Virus record (IMG/VR): IMGVR_UViG_3300033150_001420 | Location: 1-26,087 of that record | Direction: 5' to 3' (one strand) | Length of the DNA stretch: 26,087 nucleotides | Source of the DNA: a virus | Shown here: one piece after another, positions 2,858 to 25,216 of the stretch | How positions within the stretch are numbered: the stretch's first letter is position 1 | Layout of the letters: each line of letters starts with the position of its first letter | The notes under the pieces: generated by a model | Databases searched by the model: none | Told to the model about the DNA's origin: nothing | What the model saw: the letters and a program-made list of their open reading frames with translations, nothing else | Position numbers and translations under genes: made by a program

Positions 2858-3490
2858 CTAGTTCTCCCCATACAACGCCGCGATTTCATCCGTGGTCAAC
2901 ACGCGGTTGTAAATCCGGACCTGGTCCACCTTGCCGTCGAACGGAAACGTGTTGTCGCCACGTATCCCTACTTGGAATGCGCTTGCCGAACCGTTGGGGT
3001 TCCCTGCCACAACGGTTGTTTTCTCGACGTTATCCACGTACAGGTTCAAATCCCCGCCAGTGGCCGAATTGACATTTACCGCGACGTGGTACCAGGTCAG
3101 CGAAGAAAACTCGAAATATTTATTGTCAACGCTTACAGTGGACTGGTTTGTTACCCGGAAATACGTTGACGTGTCAGTAAGTATTACGAAATCGCCCCAG
3201 TCCGCAATAATTTCCGTGGTTGCCGTCCGGTGCATCATCACGTGAAATGAAAACGCATACGGCGGGGTCAAGGCGGACAGGGCACTCGTGATGTATTGCG
3301 GTGTCGAGTATTCAAGGTCTGCCCCAATTCCCACCGCTCCAGTGAGATAGGAAACGCCATTGGGAGCCGTGCCGTTGTATCCGTTCCCGCTGGTATCCAA
3401 GAGGTTGTTTTCCAGTTTCCACTCCAGCACCAACGCCCCGCCGAAATTAAACGGATTTCTGTGATGTTTTCTGCGATGAGGAAGAAACAT
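2858..3490 (-). CDS. LamG/concanavalin A-like virion protein
   Basis: After a basic N-terminus (MFLPHRRKHHRNPFNFGG, residues 1-18) the 210-residue product is a single LamG-type jelly roll. It begins with LEWKLENNLLDTSGNGYNGT and carries central strands such as WYHVAVNVN and LNLYVDNVEK. It closes with the family's usual FDGKVDQVRIYNRVLTTDEI before the final LYGEN. LamG domains bind glycans or other surface ligands. Placed just after the fibre genes, the protein is most likely a receptor-binding or capsid/tail decoration component, with the basic tail as a possible docking segment (inference). GGGAGAAG precedes the ATG, which is 2 bases past the previous stop. Confidence 0.75.
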   Translation of the reverse strand: MFLPHRRKHHRNPFNFGGALVLEWKLENNLLDTSGNGYNGTAPNGVSYLTGAVGIGADLEYSTPQYITSALSALTPPYAFSFHVMMHRTATTEIIADWGDFVILTDTSTYFRVTNQSTVSVDNKYFEFSSLTWYHVAVNVNSATGGDLNLYVDNVEKTTVVAGNPNGSASAFQVGIRGDNTFPFDGKVDQVRIYNRVLTTDEIAALYGEN

Positions 3491-3907: not shown

Positions 3908-5164
3908 TTACCACGGGTTTTGATCGTTGGAGAGCTTAAACTGCACAATCAGCCCGATGAGCCGGGCGTCTTCGGTCATGTCGTCGCCAGCGTCCGCAAC
4001 GTCGCGGCTGACCTCGACGTACATAACATCGCCTATGGAGTGTGAGACGGTTAAGGACGTGGCGGAGCCGATGTGAAGATCACCGGACGTGCCAGCAGTA
4101 ACCGAATCATCACAATTTGCCCCGGCATTTAGGGCACTGTCGAGAGCGCCGTCATCACCGACCGATCTTGTTTTAATCTCCCAAGAGACCCCATCTCCCC
4201 CGGACGCCCCGGACGCGGGCATCCAGACAGGTTTTACTTTCAATGTCGTTCGGTCCCATTCGGGAGGCGGGGATAGCCAGAATCCCACGCCCTCGGACGT
4301 GGCCCCGTCGAAGTCGTACACGTCAAGCATAATGTCGTTGGTTGCCAATTCCACCGTAGCCGCCGTGGCCCCGTTGGTATCCCTGGGGATCATGGCCCCA
4401 GCGGGCACGAACAATTCTTGGTATCCCTCTGTCTGATAGATGCGACCTGTCACAACCGCGCCGTTGGCGTTGGCCGCAACCTTGGCCGAACCGCTGGCGT
4501 ACAGGCTCGTAATGATCGCGGACAACGCGTTCCACTCCGCCCCGGATTCGTCATCCTTGACCTGCAGCACCTTGTCCGCGTCCCCCGCCGCCACGTCCGG
4601 CACCTTGGCCGCAGCCGCCACTGCAGAGTCTTCGGCCGCCTCGGCATTGACTTCGGCCGCCTCTGCCGCGACCTTGGATGCTTCGGCATCGGTCGCATAG
4701 CCGCTGATCGTGGTGATCAGGTCGTTGACGTCTTCGCGCTCATCCTCGGGCACGGTGATGGAGTATTTCAGGGTGCGGTCCAACTCCTCTTTAAGTTGTT
4801 GCGCCAGCATCACGGTGCGGTCCAGCGCGGCCTCTATTTCCGATGTGGGCAAGCTGTAGTAGGAGCCGAAAGCTTTCTCCTGCGTGTATGGGACCTCCCG
4901 GGCCAAAGTCAGGGTTTCGTCGGAGGCCAGGGTGCTAAAGGTGGACCCGGCCAAAGGAAATGTGATGGTCCCCCCCTCGTCTTCACCCACCCCGCTGTCC
5001 ACCGAGTAATCGGTGTCTTTGGTGAGCAATGTCTCATTCCCATCCGAATCCCGGTGGTAGACGCTGAGGTCATCCTCGTCCAAAATCAAAAAGTCATAGT
5101 CGAATTCGGTCTGGCTCCCGTTCCCGACATAGGCCTTGACGTTGCTGGTGGATTCAAGAGTCAT
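3908..5164 (-). CDS. Tail fibre with T7-fibre-like N-terminus
   Basis: The 418-residue product starts with the beta-rich virion-anchoring module of T7-like tail fibres (about residues 1-150). It includes YVGNGSQTEFDYDF near the start and a segment around LAREVPYTQEKAFG. An Ala/Glu-rich helical stretch follows (about 155-190, repeated EAAE), probably a trimeric coiled coil. The C-terminal part (about 235-418) is a beta-rich domain with FVPAGAMIPRD and a terminal LIGLIVQFKLS, resembling C-terminal domains of other phage structural proteins. It should attach to the tail nozzle and contact the host surface. It is shorter than T7 gp17 (553 residues). AAGGA before the ATG overlaps the stop region of the giant ejection protein gene. 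Confidence 0.8.
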   Translation of the reverse strand: MTLESTSNVKAYVGNGSQTEFDYDFLILDEDDLSVYHRDSDGNETLLTKDTDYSVDSGVGEDEGGTITFPLAGSTFSTLASDETLTLAREVPYTQEKAFGSYYSLPTSEIEAALDRTVMLAQQLKEELDRTLKYSITVPEDEREDVNDLITTISGYATDAEASKVAAEAAEVNAEAAEDSAVAAAAKVPDVAAGDADKVLQVKDDESGAEWNALSAIITSLYASGSAKVAANANGAVVTGRIYQTEGYQELFVPAGAMIPRDTNGATAATVELATNDIMLDVYDFDGATSEGVGFWLSPPPEWDRTTLKVKPVWMPASGASGGDGVSWEIKTRSVGDDGALDSALNAGANCDDSVTAGTSGDLHIGSATSLTVSHSIGDVMYVEVSRDVADAGDDMTEDARLIGLIVQFKLSNDQNPW

Positions 5165-5169
5165 GGTCC

Positions 5170-8100
5170 TTATCTCCCGCTAAAGCTGTCTTTTTTGTTT
5201 TTGTCCGGGGGGGCATAAATAAGAAAGTTCATGGGGTTTATGGACCCCTCTTTCCATTTCTCCACCCCCTGGGCCGCTCGATGCGCCCATTTAGTCGGTA
5301 CCCCAGCCAAAAAACCGATGGAATCGAGAGCGCCCCAGATCACCTTCTTTCCCTCTTCTTCATCCAGTTCACCTTTGGCCACGTGAGTGCCGAACGTGAT
5401 GGCCCGGTGAGTGTCTTGCACGATCCGGTCAATCATGTCCGTCGGGGCCGACCTGGTGACAGACCTGTTGAAGGCATACCCGGCCATGTTTCTCAAGCCC
5501 GGGATGCCAGAAATCCAGTGTAACCCCAGATCAAAGAGCAGGTCGTCCAGGTCGGGCCAGTCTCCGGTCAAAAGCGCGAATGCAAAGCTGATGGCCATTT
5601 GCGGCATAACCCACTCAAACACAAAGTGCCTGGCCCACTCTCGGGTGGACATGGTCCCGGCCCGCCATTCCCGGAAATGGAACATCTGCGAGTTCAAAAA
5701 CTGCATGGTGAAACTGGAGCAAAAATTGAAGAGCATCTTGATCCCGTGCCGGTCGCGCTGAAATGCCGCCAGGTCCATGGGGTGCCCGGATGGTTGTTTT
5801 TTTCTGATCACTTCATCGGCATACCTGGCCGAGGCCTCGATGTCGCCGCCGGTTTGCTCCATGCCACGGTTGTAGGCCGCTAGCCAGCCGGGGTAAATGT
5901 GGACCGCGTCCCCCGCGACAATAAACCAGTACATCATTTCTTCAAATTCTTGGCGGCCGAAATGCCGTTTGCCGAGTTTGACGGTCCTCACGTTCTCAAC
6001 AAAAAAACGGTCCAGGGATCGCCTGATTTCCTTGTCCAGATTCCTGGCGCGATGCTTCATGGCCGGGGACAAAGACTGAATCATTTCGATCATCTCGCGG
6101 CCACTGGTGACCATTTGGCCGGAGGCCCTGAAAATCTCCCTAAAACCGACCTCTTTTGCCGTATGAAAAACTCCCGCAGGCTGCTTCAGGGCGACACTGG
6201 CATTAAGGCCGAGCACGTAGATTGAGGCTCTCGCGTGGATCCACCCCATCACTTGTTCCGTGGGATCGGTCTTGGTCTGGTTCGGTCTGGCGATGTGTCT
6301 GAGCCACGGGGTCAGTTGGTCGTAGGCCTCGCGGCCAAAAGCGCCGACAAAAGCCTCCTTGTATGTTTCGGTCTTGATCAACTTGTGGACGTCGGCCACC
6401 GCCTCGGCGTGCGTAGCGTAATGAATGGAGTCGGAAAGATGCCGAACAAAAACGTTCAAGTTCAAAACAGGAGGGAGAGTCCCCCCCTTGCGCGCCTTGG
6501 TGAACCCGCTTCTGGCGTTCGGCTTTTGATAAACCGCTTCTTGGCGATTCATCAGGTCCTCTTGCTCAATGTGCTCTGCAGCCCGGTCAGAAAACCGCCT
6601 GTCAAAAATCAAGGGGTAATAGCCGCCCCGCACCGTGCGCCCGTTCGGCGTGACAAACGGTTCGGCCCTGACCTTCTTCATCTTGACCCCATGCAGATTG
6701 AAGTAAGCTTGGTCAACGCGCGGAAACATCTCGTCAACAAGCTCCCACACCTGTTCGACAAAATCCCAGTCGGCGTCATCCAGGTAACTGACGATCTTGT
6801 CCAGATGCTCCTGCTCCCATCCGTAGCCCTTCATCAGCGCGTTTCGGTTGCCCTCGTTGCCCATGTTAAGGGCCACGGCGATTATCTTCTCCTTGTTCCA
6901 AAGGCCTTCCCAAAAGTGGGCCACATCATTCGGCAGAGGCACGTCTATGTCGTATTTCAACCTGCCCGGGTCGAAATTTTCCAAGAGGGCCGATATTCTC
7001 TGTTGATAAACTTCCCAAAGAACGGTCTCGTCTTCCCGGGCCTGGACCAGCCGGCGGGTGATATGCGTGTAGTTCGGGCGCTGTTCATCCGGGACAACCC
7101 CCTTCTTCAAGCTGTAGCCGTCGGCGGAGTCCACAAGATACTCGGGTTTCAAGAGCTCTGCGATAAACCGCCTCCCCCATGCCCGGACCTTGCCGAAGAA
7201 AGTTTTTAGCTGCCGTTCCGTCAGTGCCCGGATTTGGCGTTTGCGCTTTTGCATCGGCTCGGCGCAAGCCTGGGCGGCGAACTCCAGGTTCATCAGCCTC
7301 TCTCCGTGTCGAATTTGGCCTTCTCTGACGCCCTGGTGGGCCAAAAAACGGACGGCTTCGTCCAGATCGCGAAGTTGTTCCAGAGTGTAATCCTTTGGTT
7401 TCCTCAAGCCGCGTTGGGGTGTGGCCAAAATCCAATCGGCGATGGGGATGTCCAGCGTCGGTTCGCTGTCGTCCTCAATCCTGGATTCGTTCAATTTTCT
7501 GGTCAAAAAGTCTCGCAACGTCGGCATCTCTTCCGGTCGGCGGGGAATCATGGTTTTTGTCCCCAGCCCGAACTGTTCAACCAGGGCTAAAACCTGCTCA
7601 TGCCAATCCCATGCGATGTTGCCCTGCCCGGCAACTCTCTTGACCCTTTTGAGGATTTTCTGAACTTCTTGGCGGGCCGATTGCTGGGCGCGGAGCTTGG
7701 CGAGAGCCATCCTGCGCTTTTCATTGGAGACCAGGGCTTCTTCTTTTTGCCCCAGCCTGTAGGCCCTTCTGGCGGCCTGGGCCTCGCGCTTCAAGACTGC
7801 GATCAGGTTGCGGTAGTCGCCTAAAATGTCCTTGACCTTGCGCTTTCCCACCTGCTCCTCGACAAAGGTCTTGAGCCTGGTCCCCTGGAGGTTGCGCCTT
7901 TGAACCGCCTTGGCCAATATCTCGCTCTCCATCTCGGCCAGACGCTCCAGTTCTTCGGTTACCACCGCGTCGGCGGCGGACCAGTTGGCTTCCCACGCAT
8001 CACGAGACCGGGCGATATAGGCCTCCGCGATGGATTGCCGCGGTTTGACCTTTAGCCCCCACTTGACCATCTCGGGTGCCGAATCAAATCCCAGGGCCTG

Positions 8101-11100
8101 CGGGGTCTGCCCACCTTCCTTCTTGACCAGACCTCGGCGCATCTTAGCCAGCTTGCCGATTGCCTCTTCGTCAATGCCTGCGTCCAGGAGGGCCGCTCTG
8201 GATACCCCCCCAGCCTTGACAATCTTATCCAAGCGCATGTTGCGAGGGTCGTTCTTGGCGACCTGTTTGGCTTCTTTTGCCCATTGCTTCTCCATTCTGG
8301 CCAACTCGGAGGTCCTACGCTGTTCGATTTTGTCCGCGGCCAGGGTGTTGACCTGATTGAGCAGCGTCTGGTAATCTTCCCCGGCCTCTCGCCCCACGAC
8401 CGGCACAACCTCGGCCGTCTGCTTGGCGTCCTCTATCTCGGCTTCAGTAGCCAACATCCGCTGAAAAACTCCCTCAATCTCCGGATCGAGCTTTATGCCC
8501 AAGCCGAGGATCTTGTGATAGACGGCCAGCAGCCAACGCCTGAAAGTCTGGAACACGCTGCGGAGCTCCGGAGACGGGGCCTTGCCTTCAAACAGGTACT
8601 GCTCGAACGCCCTGGCCCACTTCTCTTCTTGTTTCCGGGTCCATTCTTTCCCGACCCTGGCCCCGACAAAAGAACAAGCCTTGGCCCAATCATCCTTGCA
8701 CCACTGAGGCGTGGCCTCGTCTAATGCGAGTTCTTCGAGGACCTGGCGGAAGACGTGCCCGACCTCGTGCGGGAGAGTGGACCTGTCGGCTCGCTCGAAA
8801 AGATAAATGACGGCCTGGCCGTCTTCCCTGACCATGGCCCCGCGGGGGGTGGGGAACCGCTTTTCCTGGTACAGGGGCTGTCCTTGCTCCAGAATCTCGT
8901 CCCGCATCTTGTCGGTGACGGGCACGGTCCAGACTTCTTGACCGCCTCCACGGCCTCTCGTGGAGATTTCTGTCGTCCCCACCTTGGCCTTCTTGTCGAG
9001 CTTCTTGATGTACTTGCCGACTTCCTTGGGCAAAATCTTGTCGTAAAAGCCCTCCATGCCTTCCTTGCGGGGCAGGGAGCTCCCCTCTTCTTCATTCTGC
9101 ATCCGCTCCCAAACGCGGTCCACGATCTTGTCTATCTGTTCCGGGGTGTTCTCACGGGACAGGACGGATTTGGCGATATTTGCGAGTTCTTCCTTGGATG
9201 TGATGGCTTGCCCGCTGGTTTCCAGCAATTCTCCCCGGCGCCGGGCTTCTTCTTCGATGTTGATGCCGCCGGTTCTGCCGCCGAGCTGCTCCGTGGCCGC
9301 TACGGTCCACGATCCTGCAGCTTCTTCGATCTCAAGGTCCGACGCCATGCTGGGGGGCATCGTAGCCAGTTGTGCCTCTGCTTGCTCCCGCGTTTCAAAA
9401 AGGGGGCTTCGGCGCCCACTATGCTTGTCGCGGAGGTAAAACCCGCCTCTGACCTTTTTCCACGCGATCTCTTCGCTTCCCCAGCGGTTGAACTGCACTT
9501 CTCCCGGCGTCCAGGCCACGGCGTCATAGCCTTCCCTGGCGGCCATGCGAAGGACGCGCTTGAAGGCCAGAAGCGCCCAGGACTTCTTGAAGGGTGCGTC
9601 GGGGATGCCAGGGTCGTATTCTTCTCCGCCCCAGTTAGCACGGGCTTCCCGAACTGCCGCCAACCGCTCTGCGGTCGCGGGTCGCGCCTCGGCCATCAGA
9701 TTCGCCCACTCCGCGACCTCGTCGCCCCTTAGGATGCCAGCTTGGGCGTACCATTCAAGATACCGCGCCCGTTCCTGTTGTGCGGCTGAAAGGCCGGATA
9801 TGTCAAAATACTCGTTCCCGTTGTAGACAACCCCGGACGCTATCTGTCTGGCTTCGGCATTCCGAGCTTCAAACTCCTCTCGGCTTTCTTGTGGCCCATA
9901 CCCTTTTTTTCTGCCCTCCTGGTGCCAGTCGCTCTGAATCTCCTCGATAAACAAGGAGCGCTTGCCGTCCTTATCCACGCGGTCGTTAATCCGGAAGTGG
10001 ACCACGACCCCGAACTCGTCCCAATGGCTGGAGGCGTAGTCGCCCCCCGGAATTATGATCCGCACCTCGCGGTAGTTCTCGCCGCCAGGGAGCTGATGCA
10101 TGGAGTACTTGGCCTCGTAATTGTCGCCCTCAACGTGTTCCTCATACCACTGACGAGCCGCGTCCATGGCCTCCTCTTCGGTATCAAAGGGGCCTTGGTT
10201 GGACTCACGGTCTCCGACCTTAAGCATGTAGTAAAAGCCCTCGTCTGCGTCGCCGTACACCGTGACCATGTCTTCTTCAAACTCTTCGGCCACTTCTTCA
10301 CGATTGACCACCTCTTCCAGCTTCGGCCCCCCTTCTTCGATGAACGCCAGCACCTGATCCTTGCTGACCTTGCCCTCGACGCCTTCAAGCCAGTCGAACA
10401 ACCCCAGGTCGTCAAGTTCTTCCTGCTTGATACCGGGGGTTTTTTTAATCCGGCTGATCAGGTCCTTGGCGGGGATGGTCTTAAAGTCCATGCCCTCAAT
10501 AGCGCGAGCCAGGGGTGAATAAAAACCGAGGGAGTCCTGGAGAGGCTTGACAATGTCCTTGTCTGTGCTGGTTTGTTCTTGAAAAAGAGCGTCTTTACCC
10601 CCGACCTCTTCCATGAGATCGTTGACCTTGGACTCAATCTCATACAGCCGCTGCTCGATCTGCTGTATCTGCTCGTCGGTGTATCCGGCATCTTTTGCGG
10701 CCTTACGGGCCGAAACCAGCAACCCCTCCACCACGTCTCGGACCTCGCCTGTTTCGTAAGCCTGGAGCGCACCCTGGACGTAGTTAAGCACCTCCTGTTC
10801 GGAGAATCCGGTCAAGTCAATCAGCTTTTGCCCCAGGTCGCTCCGGGTGAACCCCGCAATGACCTCATCCGCCGGAATGGTCGGGGCGTCTTCCGGCCGA
10901 AGCCGGGCATGAGAAAAGACGCGCTGCCTGAACTCCGGGTCAGCGCTCACCTTCTCCCGAAAATCTCCCCAGGTCATCTCCGGTGCGACCTGGCGGTGGG
11001 TGCGCTCCAGGACCTCCTCAAAGCTCATTCTGCGCAGCTTATAACCCATTTTCGCGTAGTAGTCGGAGACAGGTCTGTTTGTGGCCAGGGACCAAACCCG

Positions 11101-13185
11101 GGCGTTAGCGTCAATCAAGGCCGCGTTGGCCTGGGCCTCGCGCCTTGGGACGCCCTGGCCGACCCAGCTTTCAACCAGGGCGTCCCTCCACTCGGAAGAG
11201 GTTCTGCCCTGCTCGTCAACTTCCACCTCCTGAAACAGTGTCTCCAGGCTGACCCGCTGAGCCGGATCGAGAGGAGGGGTGATTTCTTGAGCTTCGGCCT
11301 GCTCCGTCTGTTCCCGCGTCTCGGCCCGACTTACAGGCTCCCCTCTGTTCATGGGCCAAACCGAGGCCATTTGCTTCAATTCGCCGGACTTCTCGTTGTT
11401 CAAGAGACGGCCGAGCTTTCTCCCCGGAACCTTGATCTCCATATTCAAGTCCAGATACTCTTGAAAATCTTCCTGGGACATCTCTATGTCTTTGAGAAGC
11501 TGGGTCAGCCCTGTGAGGTCGTCTTGAAACAAGGCCTGGAGCTCGCGGGGATTGAGGAATATATCTTTCGGCAGGACGCCTTTTTCGACGTATCCCTGGA
11601 GCAGCTCCTCGAATTTTGCGGGAAGTTCTGAGGCCAGCCGGGACCGCCGGATAGGGTCGGAAAGAGCGTCAATCTGGGAGAGCCCCCGTGCGGCCTCGGT
11701 AACCACGGTGGCCCCTCCGCCGAGCATCGGGAACAGGGCCGTCGCCGTGGCCAGGTCTGGAGTCTCGGAAACGGTCTCTGCCACCACGTCCACAAAACTC
11801 TGGGTGGGTAATGTCGTTCCGTTCCAGCGGTTGCTTTGGCGGGCCGCCCAGTTTGTGGCCAGGTTGGTAGCGAAGTTTTGAAGCGTCTCTGTCGAGAACT
11901 CGCCTGCCCACCCCTGGGCAAAATTGCGAACCCCCGTCCGGATTGGACCGCGCCGCACCGCTTCCCTGACGGCTCGATTGGTGATTCGGGAGATCGCCCG
12001 TCTGCCCCCGGGGAACGCCCTGATCATGGCCCCGGTGCCCAGGGTCTCTAGTGCGCCGTTGACAAGATAGGTGCCCGCATAGACTTTGCACAGCAGGTTG
12101 TAGTCCCATGGCTGGCCGAGCCTGTCCCACTGTTCCATCAGCTCGGCCGCGGCCAGGCCGCCCTCGATGCCTCCCATGTAATCAAAGAGGCCGGAAATGG
12201 AGCCAACCGCGTAGGCCCCCCCCGTAATAGCCCCGTGTGCAAGCGTTCCAGCGCCAGGGGCGGCCTCCAGTCCGGCAGCGGCAACACCAACAGCGGTCGC
12301 CGCGGCCAGTCCCCTGGCCTGGGAAGACAAGAACCCTTCCCACATTGATGCCCCGCCCGCCGCAATGCCCCCGTACCAGATTTTCCCCAACAAATTCGTG
12401 TCAGGGGTAACGGGCGGAGTCGGCCTTGACGCTATCAATTCCCGGACGCGGGCCGCGCTCTCCGGGGAGCGCGTCTCGATGTATTCTCGCGCCGCGTGCC
12501 CTAGCCGGGACTGATACTTGCTATATCCCCAAGCTGCGGCAGTCTTCTCCAGAAAGCCCGGCGGCAACCTGTCGAACCGGGGCTGGCCGGTTCTTTCGGC
12601 CCAATCCCTGATTGTCGGAGGCGTGGCCGGGTCCGCCAGGGAAAACTCGCCCACGGGCGTGACCACAATGTCCGTGAGATGCGCGGATTCCCGGGGTTTT
12701 TGGGCCTCGAACCCGAAGGGCTGAATCTGCTGCGGGGCCTCTGAGAGATTGTATAACTCCTCGACCAGGTGTTCCTGTAACCGCTCTTCGGGCCGGGACT
12801 TTCTGGCCACCTCGTCCATTTCGGCCAGGACCGGCAGATCGTCGAGGACCAGGGACATGTTTCGGGCAACAAACTCGCCCAAAACAGGGACCTCCTCAAT
12901 TTTTTTGACAATGTCCCGGACGTCCATGAATTGAAACTGTTGGCCGGGCCGCCCCGCCCCTCGGTTGACCGCCGGACGGCTCTTGAAAAAGTCGAACCTC
13001 TCCCTCTGTGCCTCGATCTCTGCTTCCGTGCTCCGATTGTCGGCCGCGTTGGGCACGGCGAACTTGGCCGTGGAATAAGCTTCCGCCGGCGAAGTCTCAG
13101 CCCCGCCGGTCTTCAGAGGCACGAATGTGACCCTTTGGGCTTGAGGGTTCGGGACTTCGCTCAGGGGACGCCAGACAACCTTCAC
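5170..13185 (-). CDS. Giant internal virion/ejection protein with polyvalent and zincin-like domains
   Basis: This 2671-residue protein sits where T7 encodes gp16 (1318 residues), after gp14- and gp15-like genes, so it is probably packed in the capsid and ejected. Visible parts: Gly/Ala-rich, membrane-like stretches (about 290-340); a segment with GEFSTETLQNF (about 425); an acidic region; and a large-polyvalent-protein domain with FIEEIQSDWHQEGRKKGY (about 1078), WALLAFKRVLRMAAREGYD and GFYDKILPKEV (about 1380). Next comes a zincin-like domain with LPHEVGHVF (about 1470) and WARAFEQYLFEGKAP. A long charged helical region (about 1600-2010) leads to a C-terminal domain with GGYYPLIFDRRFSDR (about 2188) and hydrophobic segments near 2515-2568. 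No lytic transglycosylase domain was recognised. The start is GTG after GGAGAGAAG. Confidence 0.85.
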   Translation of the reverse strand: MKVVWRPLSEVPNPQAQRVTFVPLKTGGAETSPAEAYSTAKFAVPNAADNRSTEAEIEAQRERFDFFKSRPAVNRGAGRPGQQFQFMDVRDIVKKIEEVPVLGEFVARNMSLVLDDLPVLAEMDEVARKSRPEERLQEHLVEELYNLSEAPQQIQPFGFEAQKPRESAHLTDIVVTPVGEFSLADPATPPTIRDWAERTGQPRFDRLPPGFLEKTAAAWGYSKYQSRLGHAAREYIETRSPESAARVRELIASRPTPPVTPDTNLLGKIWYGGIAAGGASMWEGFLSSQARGLAAATAVGVAAAGLEAAPGAGTLAHGAITGGAYAVGSISGLFDYMGGIEGGLAAAELMEQWDRLGQPWDYNLLCKVYAGTYLVNGALETLGTGAMIRAFPGGRRAISRITNRAVREAVRRGPIRTGVRNFAQGWAGEFSTETLQNFATNLATNWAARQSNRWNGTTLPTQSFVDVVAETVSETPDLATATALFPMLGGGATVVTEAARGLSQIDALSDPIRRSRLASELPAKFEELLQGYVEKGVLPKDIFLNPRELQALFQDDLTGLTQLLKDIEMSQEDFQEYLDLNMEIKVPGRKLGRLLNNEKSGELKQMASVWPMNRGEPVSRAETREQTEQAEAQEITPPLDPAQRVSLETLFQEVEVDEQGRTSSEWRDALVESWVGQGVPRREAQANAALIDANARVWSLATNRPVSDYYAKMGYKLRRMSFEEVLERTHRQVAPEMTWGDFREKVSADPEFRQRVFSHARLRPEDAPTIPADEVIAGFTRSDLGQKLIDLTGFSEQEVLNYVQGALQAYETGEVRDVVEGLLVSARKAAKDAGYTDEQIQQIEQRLYEIESKVNDLMEEVGGKDALFQEQTSTDKDIVKPLQDSLGFYSPLARAIEGMDFKTIPAKDLISRIKKTPGIKQEELDDLGLFDWLEGVEGKVSKDQVLAFIEEGGPKLEEVVNREEVAEEFEEDMVTVYGDADEGFYYMLKVGDRESNQGPFDTEEEAMDAARQWYEEHVEGDNYEAKYSMHQLPGGENYREVRIIIPGGDYASSHWDEFGVVVHFRINDRVDKDGKRSLFIEEIQSDWHQEGRKKGYGPQESREEFEARNAEARQIASGVVYNGNEYFDISGLSAAQQERARYLEWYAQAGILRGDEVAEWANLMAEARPATAERLAAVREARANWGGEEYDPGIPDAPFKKSWALLAFKRVLRMAAREGYDAVAWTPGEVQFNRWGSEEIAWKKVRGGFYLRDKHSGRRSPLFETREQAEAQLATMPPSMASDLEIEEAAGSWTVAATEQLGGRTGGINIEEEARRRGELLETSGQAITSKEELANIAKSVLSRENTPEQIDKIVDRVWERMQNEEEGSSLPRKEGMEGFYDKILPKEVGKYIKKLDKKAKVGTTEISTRGRGGGQEVWTVPVTDKMRDEILEQGQPLYQEKRFPTPRGAMVREDGQAVIYLFERADRSTLPHEVGHVFRQVLEELALDEATPQWCKDDWAKACSFVGARVGKEWTRKQEEKWARAFEQYLFEGKAPSPELRSVFQTFRRWLLAVYHKILGLGIKLDPEIEGVFQRMLATEAEIEDAKQTAEVVPVVGREAGEDYQTLLNQVNTLAADKIEQRRTSELARMEKQWAKEAKQVAKNDPRNMRLDKIVKAGGVSRAALLDAGIDEEAIGKLAKMRRGLVKKEGGQTPQALGFDSAPEMVKWGLKVKPRQSIAEAYIARSRDAWEANWSAADAVVTEELERLAEMESEILAKAVQRRNLQGTRLKTFVEEQVGKRKVKDILGDYRNLIAVLKREAQAARRAYRLGQKEEALVSNEKRRMALAKLRAQQSARQEVQKILKRVKRVAGQGNIAWDWHEQVLALVEQFGLGTKTMIPRRPEEMPTLRDFLTRKLNESRIEDDSEPTLDIPIADWILATPQRGLRKPKDYTLEQLRDLDEAVRFLAHQGVREGQIRHGERLMNLEFAAQACAEPMQKRKRQIRALTERQLKTFFGKVRAWGRRFIAELLKPEYLVDSADGYSLKKGVVPDEQRPNYTHITRRLVQAREDETVLWEVYQQRISALLENFDPGRLKYDIDVPLPNDVAHFWEGLWNKEKIIAVALNMGNEGNRNALMKGYGWEQEHLDKIVSYLDDADWDFVEQVWELVDEMFPRVDQAYFNLHGVKMKKVRAEPFVTPNGRTVRGGYYPLIFDRRFSDRAAEHIEQEDLMNRQEAVYQKPNARSGFTKARKGGTLPPVLNLNVFVRHLSDSIHYATHAEAVADVHKLIKTETYKEAFVGAFGREAYDQLTPWLRHIARPNQTKTDPTEQVMGWIHARASIYVLGLNASVALKQPAGVFHTAKEVGFREIFRASGQMVTSGREMIEMIQSLSPAMKHRARNLDKEIRRSLDRFFVENVRTVKLGKRHFGRQEFEEMMYWFIVAGDAVHIYPGWLAAYNRGMEQTGGDIEASARYADEVIRKKQPSGHPMDLAAFQRDRHGIKMLFNFCSSFTMQFLNSQMFHFREWRAGTMSTREWARHFVFEWVMPQMAISFAFALLTGDWPDLDDLLFDLGLHWISGIPGLRNMAGYAFNRSVTRSAPTDMIDRIVQDTHRAITFGTHVAKGELDEEEGKKVIWGALDSIGFLAGVPTKWAHRAAQGVEKWKEGSINPMNFLIYAPPDKNKKDSFSGR

Positions 13186-13187
13186 AG

Positions 13188-15035
13188 CTACTTCTCTCCA
13201 TTCACAAAGAAGGCGCCATACGCCCCCGTTTCACTGTTAAATCCAAACCAAACCCCGTCGTAACAGATGCTGTCTTGCGGGACCCCTTCGGGCCTCGGGG
13301 TGTTGATGGTTTCGAAATAGGCCGATCGCAGCATTGCGGGGTCAATAGCCCGAGCCGGGACCCCGGTTATTTTCGACAGGTGCTCCCGGTAGTAATTCTG
13401 CAGGTTGATGTCCATCTCCTCGCCCACGACCTCGGACATGGTCTGCTCCGGGGAGGGGGCTCTTAATCCCGACCTGGCGACTTCCTGTTGCCAGGTATAG
13501 ACGGGCTTGTCGGGCAGGAAGGTGCGATCCTCGAAATAGGCCGTGGTCAAACTCTGCTGGGCATATTCCAGGATGTCGCGGCCTTGCAGCTCGCCCCGTA
13601 ACACGCGATCCCTCAGCACCGCGATAAATTGTTCAACATTCTCCTTGTTTAGTCCGTATTCTTCCGTCGCGGCGGCAGCTTGCAGGTAATCAATGGCCAT
13701 GTCTTGATATTGTTTGTTGATCTTGTCGGCCGCTTTATCTGATGCGTCCACGGCCTTGCCTGCGGATGTCGAGGCCTTGTTCATGTACTCGACCAACGCC
13801 AACCGATCTTCCCATTTGACATGGAAGTCGGTGTATCCGTAGAGGAGATCGTCGGCCGTAATGGGCGTTCCTTTCGCCACCGAGTTCTCAATGATCTCGG
13901 AAAGCAGGTTGTAGTGCCCCAGGTTGGTCACGAGGTCCGGGTCCATGGATGCGTACATCGCGGAGGCCTGCTCCGGGGTAAGGCCTGCCTGTTCCAGTTG
14001 TTCCGGTGTTAGGTTGTTTTGGGCCTGCAGTTCCTCGATTCGCTGCTTCCTTGCCTCGGCCTCCTCGGCTTTGGCCCGTCTTTTGGCCGCCTCTTCCTTG
14101 GCGCGCAGAAACTCAATATAGCTGACGGCTTCGCGGTACCTGTAGGGCTCATCGGCGAATTTTTCTCCAACCTCGGCAATCATCGCGTCATAGTCTTGGC
14201 CGTGCCGACCCGTCACCTCGTTCAAAGTCTCCTGCATCTCCCTGGCTTCGACCTTGTCCTGCAGGACCGCTTTCAGCTTTGTGGCGACATCGGGGCGGAC
14301 CAGGTGTTCATATTTGTCCAGGGTCTGCCGGGCCAGAATGGGGTCTTCCTGGGCCTGGGCTTGAACGACCATCGAGAGATAGTCGGTCGCGGCCGCCTCC
14401 AGGGCATCAGCCCGAACCTGCTTATTTTGATATAGCGCGCCAACGGATTGCTGGATCATTTTGACCTGATCCTGGATAAGCTCAGGACTGAACCCATGGA
14501 TGCGGGCCTGCTCTGCGAATGTGTTAACCGTGTCGCCTGTAGCGTTGACTTTCTGGGCGTTGATCTGCGCGGTCTCGTGTTTTGCCAGGCTCTCGGCCCC
14601 CGAGATCATGCTTCGCCCCCACATCTGATAGAACATGGCCCGCTGGTTTTCGTTTTCCAGCACCTCCTCTTGAATCCTGCGCCCTTCGGTGTTGTAGAAC
14701 TCCTGCCCGGCACGGGTTATGCCTCGGGCCTCGCCGTACTGGAGATTTAACAACCCCGTGTCAGGGTTTAAGAGGAACTCTTGCTCCTTTTGGCTCGCGG
14801 CGACATAGGCCTCCATGACCGCGAGATGGTCAGCCTCTTGCTGTTGTTTGACCTCTCGGGCGTGGATAGCCCGGGCCAAGGAATCGGAGGCGTTTGCAAC
14901 CCCGGCCAGGGACCGGGCCATGTCCCCCCCGAAGGCCGTGGCCGTGGCACCGCCGGAACGCAAAACCGTGCGGTCGGGCAGCGCCCTGGCCGCAGAAGTC
15001 GGCAACTTGCTAGCCTCAATTCTCTTTACTTTCAT
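13188..15035 (-). CDS. Internal virion protein, gp15-like
   Basis: The 615-residue product is almost entirely helical and charged, rich in Ala, Gln and Glu. Its central segment is KEEAAKRRAKAEEAEARKQR (about residues 312-331). It lies between a gp14-like and a gp16-like gene, the order 14-15-16 of T7, where gp15 (747 residues) helps build the periplasmic ejection tunnel. Sequence similarity to T7 gp15 is not evident by eye, so the assignment rests mainly on order, size and composition. Its ATG overlaps the gp14-like stop as ATGA, and its TAG lies 2 bases before the giant gene's GTG. No enzymatic motif was seen. Confidence 0.7.
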   Translation of the reverse strand: MKVKRIEASKLPTSAARALPDRTVLRSGGATATAFGGDMARSLAGVANASDSLARAIHAREVKQQQEADHLAVMEAYVAASQKEQEFLLNPDTGLLNLQYGEARGITRAGQEFYNTEGRRIQEEVLENENQRAMFYQMWGRSMISGAESLAKHETAQINAQKVNATGDTVNTFAEQARIHGFSPELIQDQVKMIQQSVGALYQNKQVRADALEAAATDYLSMVVQAQAQEDPILARQTLDKYEHLVRPDVATKLKAVLQDKVEAREMQETLNEVTGRHGQDYDAMIAEVGEKFADEPYRYREAVSYIEFLRAKEEAAKRRAKAEEAEARKQRIEELQAQNNLTPEQLEQAGLTPEQASAMYASMDPDLVTNLGHYNLLSEIIENSVAKGTPITADDLLYGYTDFHVKWEDRLALVEYMNKASTSAGKAVDASDKAADKINKQYQDMAIDYLQAAAATEEYGLNKENVEQFIAVLRDRVLRGELQGRDILEYAQQSLTTAYFEDRTFLPDKPVYTWQQEVARSGLRAPSPEQTMSEVVGEEMDINLQNYYREHLSKITGVPARAIDPAMLRSAYFETINTPRPEGVPQDSICYDGVWFGFNSETGAYGAFFVNGEK

Positions 15036-15670
15036 CGGCCCACCGTCCCCTTTACCCAGCGAGGTCCATCATATGCAGCAAACCGAGGGGCCTTCGTGGT
15101 CGAGCTCTTCTCGCCCCAGAAAGAGGTTGCCGCCGATCCGAACGTCACCCCCCCGGCCAACAAGTCCATGGTCGGGTCGTAATGAGACTGAGCCTCAAGC
15201 AGCCCAGCCTCGTTTTGGTAGCTGGCCACCCGAACGTTTCCCGACTGCTCCGCAAAAAATCGTTCGTTTCGCAGATTCCATGCGTCAAACGCCCCATTAT
15301 ATAGGGTCATCTCGATGTCCATGGCTCCTTCCTTGGCGATGTCCTCGGCCACGGCCAAGGGCGAGCCCGAATCAATCTGCACCCCCGAGGCTGCCGCCCT
15401 GGCCCGGGCGGCCCCCTGAATGGCCGCCAGCTTGCGCCGCAGCAGCGATGCCTCGTATTCAGCCTTGTATTCCCTTTGTTGGGCCTGCTTCTCAAGGATT
15501 TGCGCACGGGCATCCCTGTCTCGGGCGGCCGCCTCGGCGTTGATCCGAGCAACCTGGGCGTTGTAGGATGCGGCCTCAGCCTGGGCCTGGCCTTGCATTA
15601 TGCTGGACGCAGTGCCCAGGACCGCCGATGTCCCCGCAATAACCAAAGTCGCCGTCGCCGGGTCACACAT
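15032..15670 (-). CDS. Internal virion protein, gp14-like
   Basis: The 212-residue product begins MCDPATATLVIAGTSAVLGT, a hydrophobic Gly/Ala-rich N-terminus that could insert in a membrane. It continues with a long Ala/Gln/Arg-rich helix (about 30-105). A conserved-looking segment (SGVQIDSGSPLAVAEDIAKE) follows, typical of this phage family. T7 gp14 (196 residues) forms the outer-membrane pore during ejection, and the size and layout agree. ATG 15670 is chosen because GGGAG lies 7 bases upstream; a longer in-frame ORF to 15718 would run further into the preceding gene. It overlaps the GNAT-like gene by 8 bases and the gp15-like gene by 4. Confidence 0.75.
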   Translation of the reverse strand: MCDPATATLVIAGTSAVLGTASSIMQGQAQAEAASYNAQVARINAEAAARDRDARAQILEKQAQQREYKAEYEASLLRRKLAAIQGAARARAAASGVQIDSGSPLAVAEDIAKEGAMDIEMTLYNGAFDAWNLRNERFFAEQSGNVRVASYQNEAGLLEAQSHYDPTMDLLAGGVTFGSAATSFWGEKSSTTKAPRFAAYDGPRWVKGTVGR

Positions 15671-16142
15671 CTTTTCGCTCCCTTTGGATCGGATAAAACT
15701 CTTCGCCCCTCGGTCCATAAGGAACCGGGGGTTCGGACACCGTGAAACCGAGAGCCTTCAGCCATTTCAGGGACTTGGCGTTGCCCTTCCAGACCATGTT
15801 GAGAAGGCACGGGTAGATGTCGTGCATCCTAGCCAAAATCCATCTGCTGACCCTCATGCACAAAAGGGGTGTCTCTTCCACGGCGTCGGTCAACAGGACC
15901 CAGGCAATGCCGGTCAAGACATAATCGCCGTAACCCCTGAGCCCAAAAATTCCGAGGGGGACATCCCCCTCTTTGAAAACTGTCCATGCGTAGTCGCTGG
16001 TCCGGACCGCCTCCTTGATCACCTGGACCGGGTCCATGTCGTCGCCGTGCACGGCCCGGAGTTCTCCGAGGTCTCCCTCGCGCAGACCTCTTGCGACCGC
16101 AATCGCGTCTTCGGGGATTGCAGGCTCAATCCTAATTTCCAT
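15663..16142 (-). CDS. GNAT-fold phage protein, T7 gp13-like
   Basis: The 159-residue product starts MEIRIEPAIPEDAIAVARGL, the opening of GNAT-like proteins, and ends with the usual SLKWLKALGFTVSEPPVPYG segment followed by a strand. T7 gp13, encoded just before gp14, belongs to a similar GNAT-like family and helps virion assembly. Catalytic acetyltransfer is not required and the acetyl-CoA loop is not clearly preserved. The start at ATG 16142 overlaps the nozzle gene's stop by 11 bases. A longer in-frame ORF to 16361 lies wholly inside the nozzle gene and is rejected. A second GNAT-like gene lies at 24746-25216. Confidence 0.7.
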   Translation of the reverse strand: MEIRIEPAIPEDAIAVARGLREGDLGELRAVHGDDMDPVQVIKEAVRTSDYAWTVFKEGDVPLGIFGLRGYGDYVLTGIAWVLLTDAVEETPLLCMRVSRWILARMHDIYPCLLNMVWKGNAKSLKWLKALGFTVSEPPVPYGPRGEEFYPIQRERKDV

Positions 16143-18528
16143 ACACGACCCCTTCGGGCATAACACCCAACAGTGTAAACGGCAGGGGATAAGACTGCCG
16201 GACATAGACCTGTCCCTCCCTGTCGTAGCCGCCCGAAAAACAAATCCTCTTGTCCCCGGAAAACAGGGCTGGGGGAGCGTCGGCCCGATCCTCAGCATTG
16301 CGAAAATCAATCCATTGCAAAGTCTCTGCGTCAGGGCCGCAGGCAACCCCGAGGGTTTCATGGAGTCTGAGGGTCACGGACATGATGCGTTTTGTTTTGC
16401 CCTGGGCTGTCCCGGTCTGGACTCCGCCCTCAAGACGCAAGGTCTTGATGTTGGTGTTGTAAGGGAGCCCGGCATGGACCGTTGCTGCTGGTTCGGTCAG
16501 GGTAAAAGCCCCGTTGGAATCCACAGTGGCATTGTCCCTGGGGGCTCCGTCGGCCAGGATGGCAATATCGCGTCCGGCCAAATGGTCCATCCCCGTGAAA
16601 GAAGTTTTGAGCTTGCGGACCTCTCCGCCGGACGTGTAGGCGGGCCAGGTGCTCCCGTCTATATTCTCGCCGGTCAGCGGGTCAGCCAGAGAGAAATGGT
16701 CGGCGTCGGTCACCGTGACCTCGTATTTGTTGCCGTTGAGGTCGGTCGTGCCGTAACTGGTCCCGTCCACGGTGTGCCCCTCGATCCCCGTGATCAGGAC
16801 TGTGTCCCCGGTCGTTAGTCCGTGGGCGGTCGCGGTCACCACCACGGGGTCGGCGGAGGTGATGTCGGAGATGTCCACGGGATCGTCGTGGGTCAGCCCC
16901 GCATCCACAAAAAAAGCGTCTCGCGTGGCACAAACCCCTTCTTCCTGGCAGGGGCTAAACTCCGGGTCCATTCTCTCCACGAATCGTTTGACGACCATGG
17001 TCGAACCGGTGGTCTGGGCGTATCTGGACACGACCGCCCACACTTCGTCGTCGTTGTCGCCGGGGATTGAAGCCACGCTTTCAAACTCGCCGTCAGTGAT
17101 GTGTCTGGAAAAACCGACGATATTGTGGTCACGTTGGTAAGTCATGGCTATCAGGACGCCGTCTTCGCGCACCATCCAAGCAATGCCGTTCGGGGTCTGC
17201 TGGAACCCCCAGGACTTGATGGGGCTATTGTGTGTCATGTGGCCGGCTAACACGGTCAGGTCGGGGGCCTGGTATCCGTCGGCCTCCAGCGAGTACACAA
17301 ATTCGCGCAGGCGCTTGCCGTATGTCTGGCTGCCATCTCGTTGTAAAAAAAGAACCACATTGCCGATGACCAGCGGCTGAATGGCCGCCGAGCCGTGGAC
17401 GGTCTCTCTTCGGACTAGAACCGCGTCGGGCGTAACAATGTCTGAGCCGGAGCCGCCGTTAAGCCACCATTCGCCGCCCACTGTGCCGATCAGCAGTTTC
17501 TTTTGCGAGACCAGCCAGCGGATGGCATTCACTTCATCCGCGCTGATCGTGTAGGTGCAGGCGTCGCTGTCAACGACCGGATCGCTTACGCCGAAGTCCT
17601 CATAGCTCCCGGACTTCGACATCCAAATGGTTTGCGGGTAGCTGGGAGAACAAGCAAAGCACAGCCGCTCCTCGAAAAAAGTTGCTTGGCTCGGGTAGTC
17701 CGACGCCGCCCAGGCGGCCGGTGCGGAGGTGAAGGACACGGCCGTCAGCGTCCAGGACGTATGCGAGGACCGAGTCAGCTTGTACGGGGCCACTGACTCG
17801 TGGACCATATACATGACATCTGCGCTTTGTGTGAAATTAACGTCGAAAATCTGCGCCTCGGACCAGGGGGTGGCGACCTCGACGGGGTCCGATCCGTCAA
17901 CGATTATCCCCCCGTCTTTATACACCCGCAAGTTGTAATCGGTAAGTTCGAGGATGTAAGCCTGGGTCGTGGAGTACTGAAAAGGGATCAGCCGGGCTAT
18001 CGGCCACATCTCTCTCACCTCCACGTTGTCCACATCAAAATCTGCGTCGCTGCTGGCTCTCAGCCGCAAGGTGGAATCTCCCGCGGCCAAGAGAACCTGG
18101 GTGCTGGTCTCGTTTGAGGACACGGCCGATCCCGTTGTTGTCCCGCAAAGAGGAGTCAGGCTCCCGGCCGAATAGCCGGAAACCGTGAACTTTACCTCGT
18201 ACCATTTGCCCGCGACCAGGCCCACATCTTGAGACAGGTCCGACTCTGTGCCTGTTGCGTGTGTCGCGACCCCCCCGGAGATGGTCCATCCCGTGCCCTT
18301 CGCCCAGTCGGAGTCAGCGTCGAAAGTGCCATTGACGGCCAAGTCCCGCCCTTTTACTTCCTCGATAAATCTGAAGCCCGACCGACGAACCACCCCCCCC
18401 TGGGGGAGCACATAGGCGTTTTCCAGGGTGTCCAGGGCGTCTTGATATTTTTTGAGGTCAACGCGGGCGATCAACCTGGGGTCTATCTCGCCCGCGCCGA
18501 AATTGGTTTGTATCAGGTGCGGAGGCAC
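16132..18528 (-). CDS. Tail nozzle protein (tail tubular B-like) with two inserted domains
   Basis: The 798-residue product matches T7 gp12 in size (794) and position, and its start (HLIQTNFGAGEIDPRLIARVD) and LPQGGVVRRSGFRF are typical of this nozzle family. Two insertions are visible. Residues about 60-173 form a carbohydrate-binding-like jelly roll (VNGTFDADSDWAKGTGWTIS near its start; ADFDVDNVEV at its end). Residues about 557-639 form a small beta domain with VVTATAHGLTTGDTVLITGI, often labelled ubiquitin-activating E1-like in phage tail proteins. The nozzle closes the tail tube and holds fibres. The start chosen is GTG 18528, 7 bases after GGGGAG. An in-frame ATG at 18603 would overlap the adaptor gene by 71 bases. 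Confidence 0.8.
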   Translation of the reverse strand: MPPHLIQTNFGAGEIDPRLIARVDLKKYQDALDTLENAYVLPQGGVVRRSGFRFIEEVKGRDLAVNGTFDADSDWAKGTGWTISGGVATHATGTESDLSQDVGLVAGKWYEVKFTVSGYSAGSLTPLCGTTTGSAVSSNETSTQVLLAAGDSTLRLRASSDADFDVDNVEVREMWPIARLIPFQYSTTQAYILELTDYNLRVYKDGGIIVDGSDPVEVATPWSEAQIFDVNFTQSADVMYMVHESVAPYKLTRSSHTSWTLTAVSFTSAPAAWAASDYPSQATFFEERLCFACSPSYPQTIWMSKSGSYEDFGVSDPVVDSDACTYTISADEVNAIRWLVSQKKLLIGTVGGEWWLNGGSGSDIVTPDAVLVRRETVHGSAAIQPLVIGNVVLFLQRDGSQTYGKRLREFVYSLEADGYQAPDLTVLAGHMTHNSPIKSWGFQQTPNGIAWMVREDGVLIAMTYQRDHNIVGFSRHITDGEFESVASIPGDNDDEVWAVVSRYAQTTGSTMVVKRFVERMDPEFSPCQEEGVCATRDAFFVDAGLTHDDPVDISDITSADPVVVTATAHGLTTGDTVLITGIEGHTVDGTSYGTTDLNGNKYEVTVTDADHFSLADPLTGENIDGSTWPAYTSGGEVRKLKTSFTGMDHLAGRDIAILADGAPRDNATVDSNGAFTLTEPAATVHAGLPYNTNIKTLRLEGGVQTGTAQGKTKRIMSVTLRLHETLGVACGPDAETLQWIDFRNAEDRADAPPALFSGDKRICFSGGYDREGQVYVRQSYPLPFTLLGVMPEGVVYGN

Positions 18529-18532
18529 TGGC

Positions 18533-19159
18533 TCACTCCCCGTATTCCGGCCGGAGCCAAGGCAGATACTGATTGGGATCGTCCGACGTAGAGGACTGGT
18601 CAATCCCCGCGGCCGACAGCCAGAGATCAGGATTTGGTTGCGGCCACCGGCCCTTGCAGGCGTTGGTCAATTTGGCCCTGTCAATCTGCTGGTGGTAGAG
18701 TTGCCACATCTCTTGCGATTTGCTTGTGGACCCGGAAATGGGCTCGGCCAGCTCTGCGGCAAGCCTGAAGCCAAGGGCTAAAATAAAACTGGCGCTATAG
18801 CGGTTAGGATTGATCTCGCGAAAAATGTAGCGCGCGGAAGCATCTACCACGTTGGTCGCGATCTTGTTCCCCTCAATAACAAACTGTCCATTCGGGTAGA
18901 GTTCCAGGATGTGCAGGCAGTCGCTCGGCATCTGATAAAACAAGTCGAACCCGTAGGCCGGAGTCTCGGAGAGCTGGGCCAAGCTGTCTCGTCTAGTGGC
19001 AAAAGGCCAGGGGAACTCCTCCAAAACCGCATCCCGGACCCGCTCATAAACCAAAGAGCACAAGGTGGCCTCTTTGGAGTTGGCTTGCTCCATGGATGTG
19101 ATCAGGCTGGCCCCCAATTTGGCCAGAGCCAGATTGCAAATTTGCGTGGTCGAGGCCAT
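18533..19159 (-). CDS. Tail adaptor (tail tubular A-like)
   Basis: The 208-residue product has the hallmark N-terminus of this family (ASTTQICNLALAKLGASLIT). It continues with a helix-rich core containing VYERVRDAVLEEFPWPFATR, in which the RD..L...PW.FA pattern is typical of gp11-like adaptors. It bridges the portal and the nozzle; T7 gp11 has 196 residues. The gene sits directly before the nozzle gene (4-base gap), as in T7. Its final codons (GGGGAGTGA) supply the ribosome binding site of the nozzle gene. The start is ATG 19159, 3 bases after the previous stop. Confidence 0.8.
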   Translation of the reverse strand: MASTTQICNLALAKLGASLITSMEQANSKEATLCSLVYERVRDAVLEEFPWPFATRRDSLAQLSETPAYGFDLFYQMPSDCLHILELYPNGQFVIEGNKIATNVVDASARYIFREINPNRYSASFILALGFRLAAELAEPISGSTSKSQEMWQLYHQQIDRAKLTNACKGRWPQPNPDLWLSAAGIDQSSTSDDPNQYLPWLRPEYGE

Positions 19160-24641: not shown

Positions 24642-24768
24642 TTTTTTTCTCTCCCTTCGCAATAGTGTGTTTGCATTTTCGGCATTTCACCTCGACCTGG
24701 CCGTGCCCGTCCCACCTCAACAGCAGGCACCCGCAATGCGGGCATCTAAGCTCGACCAGGCAGCTCAC
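24535..24768 (-). CDS. Com-like zinc-finger protein
   Basis: The 77-residue product opens MSCLVELRCPHCGCLLLRWD and continues GQVEVKCRKCKHTIAKG. The two Cys-x-x-Cys pairs about 20 residues apart match the Mu Com family, zinc-finger proteins that in Mu bind mRNA to allow translation of the DNA-modification gene mom (Mu Com has 62 residues). No mom-like gene is visible here, so a modification role cannot be claimed. The start is GTG 24768, with GAGGA upstream inside the GNAT-like gene. The basic, Ser/Pro-rich C-terminus overlaps the next gene by 107 bases. Lone com-like genes are frequent near terminase genes in prophages. Confidence 0.6.
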   Translation of the reverse strand: MSCLVELRCPHCGCLLLRWDGHGQVEVKCRKCKHTIAKGEKKNEWRRKRRELSHTPSPESSNIPGSPGAGKAGHARD

Positions 24769-25216
24769 AAAAAGTCCTCGCCACCAGAAAAAAGTCCGAA
24801 CCGTCCGGGCCGTACATGGCCATCCTGGCCTCACTTACGAACCCAAAATGGCGGGCGAACCGTCCGCCGGCGACATATCCCGCCCTGACAACGCCCTCAA
24901 TGCGGTGGAGTTTCCAGGCCTTGACCAGGGTCCACATCAACGCCTTGGACCACTTGACCAGGGCCACGGGGTGCTGCTTGGCCTCGTCGGACAAGGCTAG
25001 CCACGCCCTCCCCACGCCCTGCCAGATATGCTCCAGGCCAATCAGGCCCACGGGCTGGTCATCCACAATGAACGTGTACGTGGCAGAAACCTTGACCAGC
25101 CTGGCCAGGACCTCGACGGGCCGACCGAACAGCCCGTAGATGTGGAGATGATCCCGGCAAAGTTCAACCTTCTCCAGGTGCTCGGGTTGAAAATTGATAG
25201 CTCGCATCTTGCTCAT
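24746..25216 (-). CDS. GNAT-fold phage protein
   Basis: The 156-residue product has the GNAT outline: MRAINFQPEHLEKVELCRDH at the start, the strand TYTFIVDDQPVGLIGLEHIW, then a helix-rich middle. It ends GGRFARHFGFVSEARMAMYG followed by a closing strand. Related proteins are encoded beside terminases in podoviruses and are distant relatives of the gp13-like protein at 15663-16142. Substrate and enzymatic activity are unknown. The ATG overlaps the terminase stop as TAATG. The 3' end overlaps the Com-like gene by 23 bases and supplies its ribosome binding site. Confidence 0.7.
   Translation of the reverse strand: MSKMRAINFQPEHLEKVELCRDHLHIYGLFGRPVEVLARLVKVSATYTFIVDDQPVGLIGLEHIWQGVGRAWLALSDEAKQHPVALVKWSKALMWTLVKAWKLHRIEGVVRAGYVAGGRFARHFGFVSEARMAMYGPDGSDFFLVARTFCELPGRA

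Follow-up and report, generated by a model that had tools for sequence, protein, structure and literature searches.

Gene cluster and neighbouring genes

The window (the whole stretch of DNA analysed, 26,087 bases) is an entire IMG/VR record and may represent only part of the virus genome. Its minus strand encodes the structural module of a podophage, with the genes in the order terminase, portal (PF12236), scaffold, capsid (PF20911) and tail proteins. These are followed on the same strand by a gp14-type gene, a gp15-slot gene, an open reading frame encoding a protein of 2671 residues and a tail fibre gene (Table 1). The large open reading frame (5170-13185) is intact, with 2671 codons and a GTG start, begins directly after the end of the gp15-slot gene and has a plausible ribosome-binding site. 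Its coordinates and length agree with those given in a preliminary description of this DNA, and its position after the gp14- and gp15-type genes and before the tail fibre gene is the gp16 slot to which it had been assigned.

Several other open reading frames of the minus strand were noted. A protein with a Laminin_G_3/ConA-like lectin domain (PF13385, 4e-15) is encoded directly past the tail genes (2858-3490), and a tail nozzle-type protein (16132-18603) shows an E1_FCCH-like match close to its C-terminus; the same odd name was found in Vibrio phage homologues. Two GNAT-like open reading frames (15663-16361 and 24746-25216) belong to profile families that match mutually with a probability of 100%, and the first of them occupies a T7 gp13-like slot. 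A 118-aa open reading frame (2499-2855) contains the motifs HERCHAWG...C-x6-C-L-M...CPKC, an order which we take to resemble that of archaemetzincin; it gave no Pfam match and had no relative among the loci fetched.

Table 1. Positions of the gp16-slot gene, its domains and its neighbours in the window
Feature	Residues	Position	Strand	Basis or remark
Tail fibre protein		3908..5164	-	
2671-aa gp16-slot protein, Bbp10/phrog_9880 family		5170..13185	-	phrog_9880, 4e-160 over residues 1430-2654
Helical C-terminal core	1641-2671	5173..8265	-	near constant length in the family
Stretch aligning with T7 and PhiM1 core proteins	2012-2383	6037..7152	-	
Zincin-like (gluzincin) domain	1440-1640	8266..8868	-	
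E1521, predicted third zinc ligand	1521	8623..8625	-	in E-x-W/F-A-x-x-F-E
HEVGH	1473-1477	8755..8769	-	two predicted zinc-ligand His and catalytic Glu
EIQSDWHQ domain (cargo)	1020-1440	8866..10128	-	predicted GNAT-like fold, two long insertions
FYSPL...DWL linker unit	886-960	10306..10530	-	common to Dolichospermum and Nostoc phage proteins
N-terminal arm	1-560	11506..13185	-	
gp15-slot protein, 615 aa		13188..15035	-	
GGAGAG ribosome-binding site		13194..13199	-	8 nt before GTG start
gp14-type internal virion protein		15032..15718	-	PF24072, 1.5e-11

The gp16-slot protein and its relatives

The protein is about twice as long as T7 gp16 (2671 versus 1318 aa), as had been stated, and the reported lack of a transglycosylase was reproduced: Pfam shows no SLT domain in the open reading frame, and the identical search retrieves SLT in T7 gp16 with a value of 1.7e-31. 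The motifs FIEEIQSDWHQ (residues 1079-1089), GFYDKILPKEV (1379-1389) and HEVGH (1473-1477) quoted in the preliminary description were all found. The N-terminal arm contains a Gly/Ala-rich hydrophobic stretch (residues 256-345, hydropathy peak 292-313). The LPD22 domain, which is located close to the N-terminus in the homologues from BPP-1, HU1 and Cobetia, was undetected in the window protein.

Homologues were retrieved by tblastn from 45 phage records, the match usually spanning residues ~1430-2660, and are located in the same slot in BPP-1 and in Pseudomonas, Vibrio, Caulobacter and other phages. Complete homologues range from 1902 to 4012 aa, so that 2671 aa is an ordinary size for the family, though twice that of T7 gp16. 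Among the relatives, Bbp10 of Bordetella phage BPP-1 is the best known, and it is encoded at the same gene position. The search for related loci returned nothing with the whole protein as direct query and required alignment queries. Searches of PDB by phmmer and profiles gave chance matches only, and in Foldseek neither of the two predicted models (residues 960-1640 and the C-terminal part) had a PDB match below E 0.001.

The protein belongs to the known polyvalent/Bbp10 class, the architecture of which is widespread and was largely predicted earlier; what is added here is a GNAT-like cargo that had not been catalogued, together with a cassette pattern that is clear. Gene slot and family membership support an ejected polyvalent protein. 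Literature searches found no virion mass spectrometry or proteomics of any Bbp10 homologue. Public databases name members of the family "lysin", "endolysin" or "crystallin beta/gamma motif" (PMC9239159), and a function in lysis would follow from these names. Pfam and NCBIfam detect no muralytic domain, the crystallin domain is unmatched and the gene is located within the internal-virion-protein cassette, all of which make a lysis protein very improbable. The names "lysin" and "crystallin" were rejected, as neither has a supporting domain in Pfam or NCBIfam.

Zincin-like domain

An HExxH motif arises by chance in 6.1% of shuffled copies of the window protein, and at this rate of about 6% the motif alone proves little. 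Its conservation carries it beyond chance: HExxH was found at the aligned position in 19/19 isolate-phage homologues with an alignment reaching that site, and in all 89 distinct IMG/VR domains (the window counted among them), with H1473, E1474 and H1477 invariant. The patterns used in the IMG/VR scan did not contain HExxH, so this conservation does not result from selection. Glutamate E1521, 44 residues past the second histidine, lies in the motif E-x-W/F-A-x-x-F-E-x-Y-x-x-E-G-K-A-P and is likewise invariant (89/89), a count that is partly biased by the scan patterns; the invariance holds in the isolates too.

Residues 960-1640 were modelled with AF2 (mean pLDDT 82). In the model a beta hairpin precedes helix 1470-1488, which carries HEVGH, and E1521 belongs to helix 1517-1533. 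The two are successive long helices, where pLDDT is mostly >85. HExxH together with a Glu ligand on the following helix, the mark of gluzincins, is represented by H1473, E1474, H1477 and E1521, and a gluzincin-type site is well supported by conservation and the predicted model. The preliminary description's zincin-like motif thereby gains a candidate third ligand. In a PDB structure comparison of the same model, the matches listed were all to the GNAT part and not to the zincin part. The metallopeptidase (MPTase) of polyvalent proteins has been described as having HExxH on one helix and a glutamate on the next (PMC5512222), with which the helices of the window protein agree. In 2013, residues 700-1000 of the homologue Bbp10 served as a seed for CLCA_X, a predicted zincin family (PMC3650047). 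The consensus of that family is HExxHxxxD, whereas the window protein has HExxHxxxQ (HEVGHVFRQ), its relatives mostly have E at the last position and the Bbp10 seed itself reads HESGHFFLE.

The domain could also have a role in structure or folding, as a zinc-requiring module that does no cutting during infection, as may be the case for domain C1 of the N4 virion RNA polymerase. That enzyme retains its HExxH domain yet is packaged uncut (PMC5512222), and a structural study reported no degradation of it (PMC12633501). In the present family, however, the general-base glutamate is invariant along with the ligands in 89/89 domains, and a purely structural zinc site needs no such glutamate; a module of this kind is rather unlikely, though a real alternative.

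EIQSDWHQ domain

The region preceding the zincin had been described as a large-polyvalent-protein domain (LPD). Both motifs quoted in support of this are present; the identity as an LPD did not hold, as Pfam LPD models match neither the window protein nor any of the 114 members of alignment A3, and a GNAT-like fold is predicted instead. The domain gave no Pfam family match in the window protein and none that was coherent among the 114 sequences of A3. It is encoded by at least 589 IMG/VR loci, yet has no Pfam family.

When this part of the AF2 model was compared with PDB, the best match had a Z of 10.6 (2.8 A over 131 residues), which is higher than the Z of 7-8 typically reached by unmatched models. 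The 50 PDB matches listed consist of acetyltransferases and of the GNAT-like ICL2/Rv1916 domain; they include the toxins AtaT, KacT and TacT2, and NatD. The secondary structure of the model (b-b-b4-a3-b5-a4-b6-b7, with two long inserts) fits the GNAT core. Strongly conserved polar residues are H1054, E1082, Q1084, S1085, D1086, R1234, Y1381 and D1382, and their conservation suggests an active site. The canonical acyl-CoA loop [QR]xxGx[GA] after strand 4 fits only 12 of 78 family members; at this position the window protein has RKKGYG and the family motif is QxGRxxGY. Because the canonical CoA loop is not kept, the domain is named GNAT-like in fold only.

Comparison by hhalign of the EIQSDWHQ profile with four phage GNAT profiles gave nothing, and an accepted GNAT profile likewise missed another across families, so that this comparison carries no information. 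Two RimI-like GNAT families have been reported in polyvalent proteins. On the predicted model, the domain looks like an acetyltransferase-type, GNAT-like fold that is not among the LPDs catalogued so far. A protein encoded by a Dolichospermum phage of ~209 kb (L005, 2202-9365) has ART-PolyVal in four stretches and the EIQSDWHQ domain twice, but lacks the zincin.

C-terminal core

The long helical C-terminal region recorded earlier was recovered in the predicted model of residues 1630-2671 (pLDDT 84), in which ~1040 residues are almost only helices. The model has no strong match to any chain in PDB. Middling matches include three phage core proteins, from T7 (9jyy_I), PhiM1 (8vb2_A) and E1004 (9vvp_W), which cover about the same stretch over 195-235 residues with Z of 5.5-5.8; the T7 chain is taken to be gp16 from its length. 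Comparison of the C-terminal profile with T7 gp16 by hhalign gave P 0.031 (reversed control 0.39). Such values are weak for helical proteins, so the resemblance to the core proteins of T7 (gp16) and PhiM1 is suggestive only. The profile comparison of the core with the C-terminal domain (CTD) of the N4 polymerase (P 0.027) was not collinear and was rejected as an indication of homology; the N4 CTD against the zincin profile gave a weak P of 0.0024.

Exchange of the middle segment among relatives

Modularity was examined in 81 family members, each divided into three segments (N-arm, cargo, and zincin with C-terminus). Several pairs have a close zincin and C-terminus and a similar N-arm, yet a wholly unrelated middle. 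The proteins of BPP-1 and Caulobacter phage SR18 show 46% identity across the whole zincin and C-terminus and an N-arm coverage of 89%, with undetectable similarity in the cargo; other such pairs include L148/L154 and L164/L139. The length from zincin to C-terminus is near constant (median 1050), whereas that from N-terminus to zincin ranges from 653 to 2980. Compared with 80 members, the window protein shares its C-terminal part with 72, its cargo with 21 and its N-arm detectably with only six.

The middle parts of 60 relatives contain ART-PolyVal (13/60), PBECR5 (5/60) and GNAT (4/60) domains, as well as Zeta toxin, RadC, GGDEF, LPD1/3/5/23, ddrB-ParB, MuF_C and methyltransferase domains. 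The cargo is PBECR1 in BPP-1, PBECR5 in the Cobetia phage, and GNAT with PBECR5 in Acinetobacter phage Ab9. The EIQSDWHQ domain is present beside the zincin in 26 of 80 open reading frames found via the zincin. By sequence comparison, the N-arm and the zincin with C-terminus are conserved among relatives and the segment between them is swapped, the PBECR cargo being an RNase.

Proposed mechanism

The reading that we prefer, with a probability of roughly one half, is that the protein is a large ejected carrier of a BPP-1-like podophage, in the place of gp16, with swappable cargo, a self-processing zincin and a helical core. The carrier would be composed of an N-arm that includes a hydrophobic stretch, a cargo that can be exchanged (GNAT-like in this protein), a zincin-like protease domain and a core of ~1050 residues. 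The head would contain the core and the arm, which after ejection would help to form a channel across the envelope. The cargo would enter the cytoplasm as an early effector and modify a molecule of the host or of the phage. Most likely, the zincin would cut its own protein close to the cargo/core junction, thereby freeing or maturing the cargo. Self-processing by the zincin has been proposed for polyvalent proteins, citing P1 DdrB (PMC5512222). The uncut packaging and undegraded state of the N4 polymerase weaken the case for self-cleavage.

The preliminary description had suggested delivery of a protease acting on host defence or cell-wall proteins. This stands as one option; self-processing is at least as likely, because the zincin is fixed between a variable cargo and a constant core and because of the reasoning in PMC5512222. 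If the zincin were itself the effector, it would act after ejection by cleaving a protein of the host, whether a defence protein, a regulator or one of the envelope. Its catalytic site is never degenerate, and polyvalent MPTases have also been proposed as direct effectors (PMC5512222). Parts that target the host would, however, be expected to vary or vanish; the zincin is constant beside the core while the cargo varies, and it is kept in homologues from phages of very different hosts. A host-cleaving zincin is rather unlikely, though a real alternative.

More tentatively, and with the odds somewhat against it, the gp16-slot proteins of BPP-1-like podophages may form a general cargo system in which the arm, the self-cutting zincin and the ejectosome core are fixed and the effector cassette between arm and zincin is phage-specific; the EIQSDWHQ domain would then be one such cargo, a common and new class of transferase with a GNAT fold. 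Should this cassette picture be true, the sequence from the N-arm to the zincin would by itself list early effectors delivered by virions, and the presence of protease-like domains in ejected phage proteins would become a question testable in culturable phages.

Comparison with known systems

Bbp10 of BPP-1 (phrog_9880) occupies the same slot and shares a homologous zincin and C-terminal part of ~1200 residues (25% identity) with a conserved HExxH. It differs in size (2052 versus 2671 aa) and in containing PBECR1 and an N-terminal LPD22, whereas the window protein contains the EIQSDWHQ GNAT-like domain. In the polyvalent proteins described by Iyer et al. (2017, PMC5512222), several mutually unrelated domains are joined in a single polypeptide of a late gene, with a zincin-like MPTase as hub. 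At least two unrelated, mostly enzymatic domains are expected in this class, and a single open reading frame of the window encodes the GNAT-like and zincin-like domains in a packaging/structural gene context; unlike in the described proteins, its EIQSDWHQ domain fits no Pfam LPD model.

T7 gp16 and the PhiM1 TEP share the gene slot and a weak fold similarity over residues 2012-2383. T7 gp16 has half the length of the window protein and carries an SLT domain; mobility of this transglycosylase domain among ejection proteins is known (PMC8954989). The N4 virion RNA polymerase gp50 is composed of a membrane N-domain, the enzyme, the HExxH domain C1 and a helical domain C2 of ~1100 residues (PMC12633501). 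Its cargo is an RNA polymerase, and its C-terminal helical part has no significant sequence-profile similarity to that of the window protein. The domain layout is the same and the neighbouring genes are similar, and the N4 enzyme offers the clearest model for the working of such a protein.
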